From positions 744,001 through 808,000 of the forward strand of contig CP051237.1 of the NCBI GenBank assembly GCA_017794825.1: a stretch of DNA of 64,000 bases. The letters run 5' to 3'. Origin of the DNA: Pararhizobium sp. GTDB lineage: Bacteria > Pseudomonadota > Alphaproteobacteria > Rhizobiales > Rhizobiaceae. The position numbers and the translations under genes are program-made. Below the pieces are notes generated by a model. The model saw only the letters and a program-made list of their open reading frames with translations, did not search any database and had not been told where the DNA came from. Numbering within the stretch: the first letter of the stretch is position 1; every line of letters starts with the position of its first letter. Shown piece by piece: positions 18,193 to 22,506 of the stretch.

Positions 18193-18318
18193 TTCCCGAA
18201 ACAAAGCCAGATTGCAAATCGGCAATTCCCGAAACGAAGCCAGACCGTAAGTCAGCGTTTCCCGAAACAAAGCCAGACCGTAAATCAGCAATTCCCGAAA
18301 CAAAGCCAAATTCTCGCA
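18193..18318. repeat. 33-bp tandem repeat (minisatellite), almost four copies
   Basis: Units begin at 18193, 18226, 18259 and 18292, each starting TTCCCGAAAC(A/G)AAGCCA. The period is exactly 33 bp; the first three copies are complete and the fourth diverges after about 18 bases. Because 33 is a multiple of three, all frames stay open across it, which explains the repetitive ORFs there. A strongly AT-rich stretch (18328-18370) follows directly. It lies between the DUF2189 gene and the 3' end of a DnaB-like ATPase gene; the rest of 17965-18361 shows no gene. Confidence 0.85.
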
Positions 18319-19362: not shown

Positions 19363-19875
19363 ATGTTGAATCTCATTTCTTTCTCGGGCCTGCCGGGCGT
19401 CGGAAAATCAACGATCGCCAAAGCTCTGGCGAGGGATATTTCGGCCGTCTACGTTCGGGTGGATTCCATTGAAGCGGCGCTCAAAGTGAGTGTGCTAGGC
19501 GTCCACGAAGCAGAAGACGCCGGATATCTCGCGGCAGCCAACATCGCGAAGGACAATCTCGCGCTTGGTCATAACGTGGTCGCCGACACGGTAAATCCTG
19601 TGTCGGAAACGCGAGCGCTTTGGGCTCAGGTCGCAGCCGACAGCGGCGCCAGACTGTTGAACGTCGAAATCGTGTGTTCGGACAAGATCGAACATCGCCG
19701 CCGGGTGGAAACGCGCAGTAGCGAGATCCGGGGACTGGTTTGTCCGAGCTGGAACGAGGTTGAACAACGGTCCTATCAGGAATGGACACAAGACCGACTG
19801 ATACTCGACAGCAGTTCACTCCGGGTCAGCGAAAGCACGGCGAAGATCATTGAATATATAAAATTAGTATCCTGA
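19363..19875 (+). CDS. P-loop kinase, AAA_33 family
   Basis: A 170-residue nucleoside-kinase-fold protein. Walker A is GLPGVGKST (residues 9-17), with a downstream VRVDSIE (Asp of the acceptor site) and a LID-like EHRRRVETRSSE Arg-rich helix. The family includes small-molecule kinases, such as gluconokinase- and chloramphenicol-phosphotransferase-like proteins; the substrate is not evident. ATG 19363 has AGGAAAC just upstream. It precedes the carrier-thioesterase pair on the same strand by 160 nt and could act with it, but that is only neighbourhood. Confidence 0.78.
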   Translation: MLNLISFSGLPGVGKSTIAKALARDISAVYVRVDSIEAALKVSVLGVHEAEDAGYLAAANIAKDNLALGHNVVADTVNPVSETRALWAQVAADSGARLLNVEIVCSDKIEHRRRVETRSSEIRGLVCPSWNEVEQRSYQEWTQDRLILDSSSLRVSESTAKIIEYIKLVS

Positions 19876-20035
19876 TCATACCTGCACTTTGGCGCTGACG
19901 GGCGTTCACCGAGCAAGAATGGTGGACGAGCCCGCAAAGGAGCAAAAGCCTGTCATGTTGAAACCATGGACAATTGTGCTAATACCGCCTCTTCCGAACA
20001 GTTGACGGCACCGGAATTGCGACGACGGAAGTTCA

Positions 20036-21271
20036 ATGGACGCACAGTCACTTCATACATCGCGGGAACTGCTTGATCTTCCAGGCGCCTACGAGGCGCC
20101 GACGAGTGAAACTGAAAAAACGATCGCTTCGATCTGGCGCGCGGTGTTCGAGATCGACGCCATCGGGATCGACGATGATTTCTTCGATCTCGGCGGCGAT
20201 TCCGTCAAGGCGACGCGCATAACGGAAGAGATCAACCTCTCCCTCGGCAAGGTCTTCAAGGCCGGCCAGCTGGTCGAGAAGCCGACGATCCGGGAGGTCG
20301 CGGCTGCAATCGAAAGCGAAGGCGCCGAAGACGGCGCCGTCAAGTTGGCCTCTCATATTCTGACGGTGCGCAAAGGCGGCGATCATACGCCCCTGTTCAT
20401 CGTGCACGGGCTGGCCGGCTTCTTCTTTCCGAATGCGGAGTATATGGGGGCGTTTCGCGAAGACCAGCCGATTTACGCCTTTCAGGTGCCGGGTTTCGAC
20501 GGGCAGATGGAGCCGCTCGGCACGGTCGAGGAGATCGCCGAAGAATACGTCAAGGCGGTGCTTGCGGTCGACGCCGACGGCCCGTGGCACCTTGCCGGCA
20601 TGTGCTCGGGATGCTGGATCACCTTTGAAATGGCGCGCCGGCTCAAGGAGCGCGGCAAGGAGCTGGGCCGCGTCATCCTGATCGACCCCTATATCGAGCG
20701 CGGCAGAATGCGCGAGCAGTTCGAGACAAATCGCCGGGTCGGAGCGTCGGGTCCCATTGCCCTCGCGGCCTCGGCGTTGTCGAGAACGCGGCTCGCCTAT
20801 ACCCGCCTGAAAAGCAAGATCGGCAATTATCGCGCGACAGGCTTGTGGATCAGCAGCACGAACCCGAAAGCGTTCGATATCCCCGAGGTGAGACAGAAAA
20901 TCCTCGAAGAAAGCAGGAAGAACCGCAAGCAACCAACACGGGATGAAGACTTGAGCGGCAAGGAGCGTTTCCAGAACGAGGCGCTGATCAACAAGCACCG
21001 TTCGGACACCGGCGTCTACGCATCCGAAGTCCTGCGATACGCCTTTTATCGTTACAGCACTAATCGTTCGATCGACAACCATGTCGACATCATCGCGAGC
21101 GAACATCTGAAGAAGAAGCTGAAGAATCCCCATCACCCGGTCTGCCGGGCAATGCCCAATCACGACATCATCATCGCCGGCCGAAAGCATGACGACACCG
21201 TATCCACAACCACTGCGCTCAACAGCTCCATCATGCAGGACCTGATCAACAAGCCCATCCGGCAGGTTTGA
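20036..21271 (+). CDS. Carrier protein-thioesterase fusion, copy 1
   Basis: A 411-residue two-domain protein. Residues about 22-95 are a peptidyl/acyl carrier domain with the phosphopantetheine site DLGGDS (Ser56). Residues about 105-400 are an NRPS-type alpha/beta-hydrolase thioesterase: an IVHGLAGFFFP oxyanion segment, nucleophile elbow GMCSG with Cys190 in place of the usual Ser, Asp in HVDIIASE, and His in GRKHDDTV. A long helical lid (about 215-330) is inserted. No adenylation or condensation domains are present or nearby, so the carrier must be loaded by an enzyme elsewhere. The next gene is a close paralogue, starting a few bases after this stop. The reaction is unknown: acyl transfer, hydrolysis or cyclisation are all possible. 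Confidence 0.85.
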   Translation: MDAQSLHTSRELLDLPGAYEAPTSETEKTIASIWRAVFEIDAIGIDDDFFDLGGDSVKATRITEEINLSLGKVFKAGQLVEKPTIREVAAAIESEGAEDGAVKLASHILTVRKGGDHTPLFIVHGLAGFFFPNAEYMGAFREDQPIYAFQVPGFDGQMEPLGTVEEIAEEYVKAVLAVDADGPWHLAGMCSGCWITFEMARRLKERGKELGRVILIDPYIERGRMREQFETNRRVGASGPIALAASALSRTRLAYTRLKSKIGNYRATGLWISSTNPKAFDIPEVRQKILEESRKNRKQPTRDEDLSGKERFQNEALINKHRSDTGVYASEVLRYAFYRYSTNRSIDNHVDIIASEHLKKKLKNPHHPVCRAMPNHDIIIAGRKHDDTVSTTTALNSSIMQDLINKPIRQV

Positions 21272-21276
21272 CATTG

Positions 21277-22506
21277 ATGGAAGCGCAGATCATGGACACT
21301 GAGCATATCGCAAGAGACGATCTCGGGCTGGAGAGCGCCTACGCGCCGCCGCAAACCGTCGTCGAAGAAAAACTTGCAGGCTTCTGGTGTGACATATTCG
21401 GCATTGACGGGATCGGGATTGACGACGACTTCTTCGATCTCGGCGGCGATTCCGTCAAGGCGACCAGACTGACGGAGGCCATCAAACAGGAGCTTGGAAC
21501 GAGCTTCATGGCGGGACAGATCGTCAAGAACCCGACCATCCGCGAAATCGCCGCAACGCTGGAAGCCGCCGGAAACACGCAACTGCCCTCGCATGTCTTC
21601 GCCCTGCAGACAGGCGGAACGAGAGCGCCCCTGTTTCTCGTGCACGGCGCGGCTGGATTCTTTTTCCCCCACGTCGATTACATGAAGGCCTTTCACGAAG
21701 ATCAGCCGGTCTATGCATTTCAGGTGCCGGGCTATGACGGCCGGATGCAGCCGTTCGACACGGTCGCGGACATCGCCGACTGCTATCTCGAAGCCATCCT
21801 GCAAGTGAACCCTGACGGCCCGTGGCATCTTACCGGCATGTGCTCCGGCTCCTGGATCGTTTTCGAAATCGCCCGCCGTCTGGAGGAAGCCGGCAAGCGG
21901 ACTGAAAGGATCATTCTCATCGATCCATTCGTCGAAGACGGCAGAATGCGTGATGACTATGAACGTGCGAGACGCGATCATGCAGGCACTCTCACCGCGC
22001 AGGTCGCCTTCGCGAACACGCAATTCAAATCGTTTACCCGGAGTTTGCGCCAGAAATTCAACTGTTGGCGCGCGACGGGCCACTGGATCGATCCGATTGA
22101 CGAAAAGGCGCTCGCCATTCCGGAGGTTCGGGAATGGCTGCTGAGGGAGCGACACGACTTTGTCTCGGCAGACGATATTGACGCGACAAAGTCGCATGAG
22201 GCTTTCGAAGGCGAGAGCTTGATCAACGCCTATCGCTCGGACGAAGCGATTCTCGCGTCGGAAAAGCTCAGACGCGCCTTCTACGCCTACAGTTCGGACA
22301 AGAGCATCGCCAGTCACGTCGACATTATTGCCAGCGAATTCCTCGACCGGCGACTGAAAAACCCGATCAACCCGTTGCGGCGGATGATGCCGGACCAGAC
22401 CGTTATCGTCCAGGGCGCCACCCACATGGACACGGTGTCGACGACCACGTCGGACAACAGCGAAATCATCCAGCGTCTGCTGGACGAGCCAATCCCGGGC
22501 AAGTAA
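21277..22506 (+). CDS. Carrier protein-thioesterase fusion, copy 2
   Basis: A 409-residue paralogue of the preceding protein with the same order: carrier domain (Ser59 in DLGGDS), then thioesterase with GMCSG (Cys189), HVDIIASE Asp and QGATHMDTVS His. Identity is visible along the whole length, including the lid, which points to a tandem duplication kept by selection. The frame opens at a TTG inside the previous stop, but ATG 21277 (or 21292) is the likely start; coupling to copy 1 is expected. It ends 1 nt before the stop of the convergent kinase-like gene. Two carriers may hold different acyl groups, or one may accept from the other; this is inference. Confidence 0.85.
   Translation: MEAQIMDTEHIARDDLGLESAYAPPQTVVEEKLAGFWCDIFGIDGIGIDDDFFDLGGDSVKATRLTEAIKQELGTSFMAGQIVKNPTIREIAATLEAAGNTQLPSHVFALQTGGTRAPLFLVHGAAGFFFPHVDYMKAFHEDQPVYAFQVPGYDGRMQPFDTVADIADCYLEAILQVNPDGPWHLTGMCSGSWIVFEIARRLEEAGKRTERIILIDPFVEDGRMRDDYERARRDHAGTLTAQVAFANTQFKSFTRSLRQKFNCWRATGHWIDPIDEKALAIPEVREWLLRERHDFVSADDIDATKSHEAFEGESLINAYRSDEAILASEKLRRAFYAYSSDKSIASHVDIIASEFLDRRLKNPINPLRRMMPDQTVIVQGATHMDTVSTTTSDNSEIIQRLLDEPIPGK

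Follow-up and report, generated by a model that had tools for sequence, protein, structure and literature searches.

The window studied here, a 64,000-nucleotide stretch of a Pararhizobium sp. genome (positions 744001–808000 of the single 6,060,643-base contig CP051237.1 of assembly GCA_017794825.1, 99.85% complete; genome G000), carries two adjacent genes that each fuse a peptidyl carrier protein (PCP) domain to a thioesterase (TE) domain with a Cys nucleophile. Going beyond the initial annotation of this DNA, we find that these stand-alone PCP-CysTE proteins are two of nine paralogues in a genome that lacks recognizable nonribosomal peptide synthetase (NRPS) parts, and that a likely partner ligase, here called AL, is encoded 1.9 Mb away. 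We propose, with a confidence that falls just short of even, that they are stand-alone acyltransferases which bring their own loading arm, are charged by AL and pass a non-amino acid to a sugar acceptor. In window coordinates, the pair comprises the following features.

20036..21271, plus strand: PCP-CysTE paralogue 1 (411 residues), with the carrier at residues 29–92 and the TE from about residue 110 to the C terminus.
20201..20203, plus strand: phosphopantetheine Ser codon of paralogue 1 (DLGGDS), from the sequence and a column invariant in 24 of 24 proteins.
20603..20605, plus strand: nucleophile Cys codon of paralogue 1 (GMCSG), from the sequence and a column invariant in 24 of 24 proteins.
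21292..22506, plus strand: PCP-CysTE paralogue 2, 404 residues from ATG or 412 from TTG at 21268.
21451..21453, plus strand: phosphopantetheine Ser54 codon of paralogue 2, from sequence and alignment.
21841..21843, plus strand: nucleophile Cys184 codon of paralogue 2 (GMCSG), from sequence and alignment.
21922..21924, plus strand: triad Asp211 codon of paralogue 2 (LIDP), right after strand 206–210, which is beta-6 by position.
22423..22425, plus strand: triad His378 codon of paralogue 2 (THMDTV), from sequence, alignment and model.

Both window proteins contain DLGGDS and GMCSG, are 53% identical to each other and match PF00550 (E 6e-13 and 7e-16) and PF00975 (E 4e-17 and 5e-18) above the curated cut-offs, which bears out the initial description of two adjacent carrier–thioesterase paralogues. 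The thioesterase is also complete, as had been stated: carrier Ser54, Cys184, Asp211 and His378 (paralogue 2 numbering) are invariant across all 24 full-length proteins of G000 and two congeneric genomes, G001 and G002. Around the Cys the elbow varies (GMCSG in 6, GFCHG in 6, GFCNG in 6, AYCGG in 2, GYCAG in 2 and AFCQG in 2 proteins), so that Asn follows the Cys in 6 of the 24, as it does in SulM, without the Gln of SulM. An AlphaFold model of paralogue 2, built from a 13-sequence alignment (mean predicted local distance difference test score 82, predicted template modelling score 0.81), predicts that the carrier is helical and that the alpha/beta-hydrolase bears a long helical lid, residues 288–308 being poorly predicted, and places Asp211 directly after the strand that follows the nucleophile strand.

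The closest Protein Data Bank structures are the PCP–TE ends of NRPSs, led by AB3403 (4zxh), which is the best match both by sequence (E 2e-37) and by fold, with EntF (3tej) and SulM (8w2d) among the first eleven fold matches. The domain order, a PCP followed by an alpha/beta-hydrolase TE with its triad, is that of type I NRPS thioesterases and not that of type II (editing) thioesterases, which are single TEs without a carrier, since the carrier Ser is present in 24 of 24 proteins. The Cys nucleophile, again in 24 of 24, is that of the beta-lactone- and beta-lactam-forming Cys thioesterases; the triad Asp after beta-7 that marks those enzymes is absent, and none of the 24 proteins has the Gln-Cys-Asn elbow of the SulM type.

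The nine full-length paralogues of G000 lie at four loci, and the other eight are 38–53% identical to paralogue 1.

Locus W: the window pair.
Locus S: a single copy near 5.211 Mb of G000.
Locus Q: four copies near 2.565–2.572 Mb of G000.
Locus T: a pair near 5.458–5.461 Mb of G000.

G001 likewise carries nine full-length PCP-CysTE genes and G002, which is 79% complete, carries six; the W, S and Q neighbourhoods are conserved across the three genomes (with variable internal gene order at Q) and that of T across two. Among the other 58 genomes searched, PCP-CysTE matches occurred in 15, none of them full-length; the scan for related loci covered the best 80 of 366 loci with patterns derived from one paralogue. 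The two window lineages pair at 100/99 in the carrier-plus-TE tree, which shows the tandem duplication to be genuine and places it before the congeners diverged. Eight orthologue comparisons (G000 versus G001 or G002) gave non-synonymous divergence (dN) of 0.05–0.14 against synonymous divergence (dS) of 0.5–1.0, which indicates that the genes are maintained by purifying selection; identity between orthologues is 86–90% at W, S and T, and at Q it is 76.5% for one copy and 82.5% for another.

Searched genome-wide, G000 yielded no match to the condensation domain (PF00668), and 0 of 45 matches to the amino-acid adenylation model (TIGR01733) exceeded its cut-off, so neither in cis nor in trans did we find the condensation and amino-acid adenylation domains of an NRPS termination module. 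The same searches placed no AMP-binding or condensation match in the window, as the initial annotation had reported for adenylation and condensation domains. That the pair is the split-off end of an NRPS encoded elsewhere, as the match of fold and PCP–TE order to NRPS ends might suggest, is refuted by these results as far as the assembly goes; in a single-contig genome of this completeness we reject it as exceedingly improbable, and the earlier view of stand-alone genes stands. Judged from sequence, the PCP-CysTE architecture, the family and the lack of NRPS parts are near certain. The two companions that the initial annotation had proposed to look for are both present in G000: a stand-alone adenylation enzyme of the right family, AL, and a phosphopantetheinyl transferase, one of two PF01648 matches, which scores HetI-like, below the HetI equivalog cut-off. 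In the open-access literature we found no stand-alone PCP-TE or Cys-TE system of this kind, although one may be in print elsewhere.

Searches of the order (397 genomes), the family around G657 (136 genomes) and the phylum (398 genomes), with at most 4 candidates scored per genome in the class, order and phylum searches, returned seven stand-alone PCP-CysTE genes in six genomes outside the genus (one each in G657, G475, G676, G897 and G896, and two in G1176). Six of the seven adjoin a stand-alone ligase gene, and the seventh, in G896, is cut by a contig end. In G657, G475 and G676 the end of the PCP-CysTE gene runs into the start of the ligase gene, and in G897 the two are 11 bases apart, the ligase gene coming second; in G1176 two ligase genes alternate with two PCP-CysTE genes. 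These ligases were assigned by NCBIfam (G657, G475 and G676), by Pfam (one G1176 ligase) or by BLAST (the rest). Beside the G1176 set we noted that locus L279 (G1176:C4:286000-305900), which holds the two ligases, the two PCP-CysTE genes and a transporter, has transposase-like open reading frames, identified by eye, on both sides, and is possibly a mobile form of the cassette.

G000 has 41 AMP-binding places, 40 of which were compared by BLAST (the place at 6030068, with the same scores as 3252, was left out), and the best homologue of the G657, G897 and both G1176 ligases is the following gene, at 272–290 bits against 142–218 for the next.

G000:C1:2684773-2686257, minus strand: AL (L242), a stand-alone adenylate-forming ligase, identified by BLAST and tree kinship.

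In a tree of 35 of 40 ligases (L240, L241, L245, L246 and L247 excluded), AL is nested among the partner ligases, grouping with the G657 ligase at 96 and within a set of five at 98. A second gene, L237 (G000:C1:40-41 kb), gives the top G000 match for the ligases of G475 and G676 and sits at the base of the partner-ligase set of nine (100). Scoring at most 25 candidates per genome, we found AL at the threshold used in 2 of 61 genomes, G000 and G001, both of which hold the TE family; it is 96% identical between them. AL thus supplies a ligase of the matching group in trans, from a non-adjacent place, and we consider it likely that it is the partner of the PCP-CysTE proteins. The ligase beside the T pair (L116:5486-7051) is disfavoured as a partner, being missing from the syntenic place in G001 and falling outside the partner-ligase group (row L224). 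The A4 Asp of NRPS adenylation (A) domains holds the alpha-amino group of the substrate; it is missing in all nine candidate ligases tested, AL included and the G1176 ligases outside the test, whereas of 9 hand-picked NRPS control stretches 7 have it and 2 failed to align as A domains. The absence of this residue suggests that the acid activated by AL is probably not an alpha-amino acid.

The stand-alone Cys proteins form a group of their own. A maximum-likelihood tree built on 80 carrier-plus-TE rows puts all 25 stand-alone Cys rows on one side of a branch supported at 96/92 and in 95% of bootstrap trees, the bootstrap being not fully settled and near-copies raising support; when the G475 and G676 rows are set aside, the other 23 group at 99/95, and a smaller tree without G1176 gives 99/90. 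The careful trees exclude L064, L206, L179 and L184 as long branches and six G002 rows, and L281 and L282 were also left out. The group spans the order of the window genome and one genome of another order. Stand-alone PCP-TE proteins do not always carry Cys, because Ser-elbow versions occur in G380, with a ligase directly downstream, and in G139, with a ligase about 3 kb away. Both lie outside the Cys group in a quick tree, as does G380 in the careful tree; the careful trees omit the G139 row, a long branch. As to homologues with Ser at the elbow, which the initial annotation had named as a possible objection, the seven kin genes of the six genomes all encode Cys and the Ser versions did not group with them.

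Several further architectures surfaced in these searches. The phylum search gave shorter frames in G586 (376 residues) and G1043 (693 residues). Single-module A-PCP-CysTE frames of 888–889 residues occur at L171, L187 (G067) and L189 (G139), and their A domains lack the FDxS motif; we do not claim these tri-domain proteins as nearest kin, since they were so in one tree and not in the next. At L280, L281 and L282 (G998, G1150 and G1126) a carrier–sulfotransferase gene precedes a gene for a thioesterase with a Cys elbow (GMCLG), in which the carrier-like stretch at the N terminus has no Ser; Pfam, run on L281, gave no carrier match there, and the L280 row falls outside the stand-alone PCP-CysTE group.

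Gene neighbourhoods bear on the acceptor. At Q the four PCP-CysTE genes are interleaved with two GT25 glycosyltransferase genes and followed by a putative sugar O-methyltransferase gene (TIGR04371, over the cut-off) and a CmoA-like methyltransferase gene (below the equivalog cut-off), and the Q cluster of G002 includes a Capsule_synth gene. S adjoins a GT2 gene in all three genomes, with a GT25-like gene nearby in G001, and the G475 cassette is surrounded by Wzz-like (just under the cut-off), GT2, nucleotide-sugar dehydratase/epimerase and GH16 genes. Because glycosyltransferases accompany two of the loci and a polysaccharide cluster surrounds the G475 homologue, we tentatively suggest a sugar as the acceptor, at a little less than an even chance.

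We therefore envisage that the HetI-like phosphopantetheinyl transferase would arm the carrier Ser; that AL would activate a carboxylic acid other than an alpha-amino acid and load it onto the carriers in trans; and that the acyl group would move from the carrier to the Cys of the thioesterase-fold domain, within its Cys-Asp-His triad, which would hand it to an acceptor and not to water. Most likely the acceptor would be a sugar, modified at a hydroxyl or amine, that belongs to a cell-surface glycan or to a precursor of one. With one ligase common to nine paralogues, the acceptor may be their main difference, and in this genus the ligase gene would have parted from the fused gene, which grew to nine copies. 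We judge it probable that the Cys domain transfers the acyl group and does not hydrolyse it. The strongest form of the idea, a one-to-many acyl code in which a single ligase charges nine Cys acyltransferases that each read a different sugar acceptor, we regard as rather unlikely.

Several observations weigh against this proposal. No glycosyltransferase was noticed at W or T, where family searches covered some of the neighbouring genes. The G897 and G1176 cassettes adjoin carboxylate-transporter-like genes (an NMT1-like binding protein and DctM), not glycan genes, and the G657 cassette lies near a TctC-like gene just under the cut-off, a less clear carboxylate-transporter-like case. The Ser version of G139 is likewise accompanied by NMT1-like and DctM genes, a combination that we take to be a transporter of the TAXI-TRAP type; such neighbours may import the acid. 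AL adjoins none of the nine PCP-CysTE genes, and the search of G002, a 79% complete genome in which at most 25 candidates were scored, did not return it; L237 could take its place or act alongside it. Members of the stand-alone Cys group were picked for their Cys and their length ahead of any reading of the tree, and searches that are sampled and thresholded cannot prove absence elsewhere. Hydrolysis, too, stays compatible with the sequence. From sequence alone, the architecture, the invariant residues, the family grouping, the purifying selection, the kinship of the ligase and its presence in the genus, and the lack of NRPS parts form the settled portion of the account.

A free metabolite might instead be the product, with each PCP-CysTE protein and a ligase making esters, amides or rings by joining or dimerizing acyl units, as single-module A-PCP-TE synthetases do, and flavin halogenase-like enzymes near T and AL decorating the carrier-bound acid. 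Tri-domain A-PCP-CysTE frames exist in the class, as noted above, although their placement shifts between trees. A strong PF04820 halogenase lies 3.5 kb from T in G000 and 1.6 kb from it in G001 (95% identical between the species), and a weaker PF04820 protein is encoded divergently from AL (86–87% identical between species); their presence near T and AL makes halogenation or oxidation of the carrier-bound acid possible. The Asn after Cys in a quarter of the proteins, as in the ring-forming SulM, points the same way. However, the four Q genes are interleaved with GT25 genes and precede sugar-methyltransferase-like genes, and the triad Asp follows beta-6. According to the available text of PMC11298585, the triad Asp of SulM and ObiF follows beta-7; the position after beta-6 in the window family disfavours beta-lactone or beta-lactam formation, so the strained-ring analogy drawn in the initial annotation does not carry over, even if the SulM-like Asn points in the other direction. 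We judge this small-molecule alternative unlikely.

The fold and triad would also suit hydrolases, in which the Cys domain would release the acid held by the carrier of the same protein, for editing or salvage, so that the protein would be a futile or regulatory acyl buffer. Yet the Cys is kept throughout a group that takes in this order and a single genome of a second, an adjacent ligase would create a futile cycle, and nine copies are present, under purifying selection in the comparisons made; hydrolysis as the function is quite improbable. We give a similarly low probability to thiol-to-thiol shuttling, by which the Cys domain would move acyl groups between its own carrier and CoA or another carrier, such as the product of a lone small carrier gene in G000 (C1:1890663, 1.89 Mb) that has a counterpart at the syntenic place in G001. 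Cys, which SyrC and CmaE use, is suited to thioester exchange, but the known shuttles serve NRPS lines and are not known to be fused to a carrier, and no condensation domain was found in G000. SyrC, CmaE and LgnA are examples of such shuttles in the available text of PMC8748450.

Two further genes were considered as partners of the pair, and a kinase was rejected as a general partner and an amidase as an obligate one; the features upstream of the pair are the following.

19363..19875, plus strand: a small P-loop kinase (PF13671), syntenic in all three congeneric genomes, with a putative link to the pair.
19876..20035, plus strand: an intergenic stretch at the site of an amidase, of which the window keeps only the 98–105 bases adjoining the PCP-CysTE start, at 90% identity to the congeners.

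The kinase lies beside the window-type pair in all three genomes, so the neighbour stressed by the initial annotation is real, but tblastn allowing E up to 1 did not recover it in the sequence flanking the other three loci of G000 and the congeners, which excludes it as a general partner. In G001 and G002 a whole amidase gene lies between the kinase and PCP-CysTE 1 (L027 and L028, 89% identical to each other); having no match in the window (the rest of the genome was not searched), it is not an obligate partner. Farther upstream, at 18195-18310 of the window, four copies of CCCGAAACRAAGCCARA occur at a spacing of exactly 33 bases, where 0.05 are expected at up to 2 mismatches. Further copies of the motif lie close to the T pair (L111:18184-18400) and to another AMP-ligase (L226), and the congeners carry it too; it is a repeat family of this genus. 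Also beside the T pair is a gene for a large protein (L111:10850-12931, 693 residues), which is 79% identical to its G001 counterpart and matched neither Pfam nor NCBIfam.

Taken overall, the interpretation given in the initial annotation is partly supported, and its reading of an unrecognized acyl-modification route is reasonable but unproven. If our proposal is correct, the family would represent thiotemplate acylation without condensation domains, with loading arm and acyltransferase combined in one protein of about 410 residues that uses a Cys nucleophile and a separate ligase, and it could explain unusual acyl decorations of bacterial surface glycans. Were the one-to-many code also true, the ending of a peptide synthetase would have been turned, from a possibly mobile cassette of ligase and PCP-CysTE, into a combinatorial system for surface-glycan acylation. 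Nine natural paralogues, together with ligase-linked versions in five other genomes, offer test material for a Cys thioesterase that does not end a peptide.

Among known systems, the PCP–TE didomains of NRPSs (EntF, SulM and AB3403) have the same fold and domain order as the window family, which differs in standing alone, in forming its own branch and in its divergent lid and C-terminal part. AlmEFG and Dlt also combine a ligase, a carrier and a transferase without an NRPS to modify the cell envelope (lipid A and teichoic acids), with amino-acid substrates and with transferases unrelated to the window family. AB3403, as far as the available text of PMC11298585 describes it, has a Cys nucleophile with its Asp after beta-6, both of which the window family shares. 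ObiF1 and SulM share the Cys, and SulM the Asn after it with 6 of the 24 proteins; on the same partial source they differ from the window family, which has no full Gln-Cys-Asn motif, in the beta-7 position of the Asp. SyrC, CmaE and LgnA, described in the portion of PMC8748450 at hand as thioesterase-like aminoacyl shuttles that transfer instead of hydrolysing, resemble by description what we propose, and serve NRPS lines.

A functional analogy is offered by clorobiocin and coumermycin, for which the available parts of PMC11218499 and PMC8748450 describe a discrete acyltransferase (CloN7/CouN7) that moves a carrier-bound acid onto a sugar hydroxyl, in a pathway that includes a glycosyltransferase, a sugar O-methyltransferase and a halogenase. 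The chain from the CloN4 ligase through the CloN5 and CloN1 carriers to CloN7 brings a carrier-bound acid to a sugar, as the route proposed here would. As presented in those parts, however, the CloN system starts from proline and keeps carrier and transferase separate, whereas the window family fuses the two, relies on Cys, is paired with a ligase that lacks the alpha-amino Asp and is present in nine copies.

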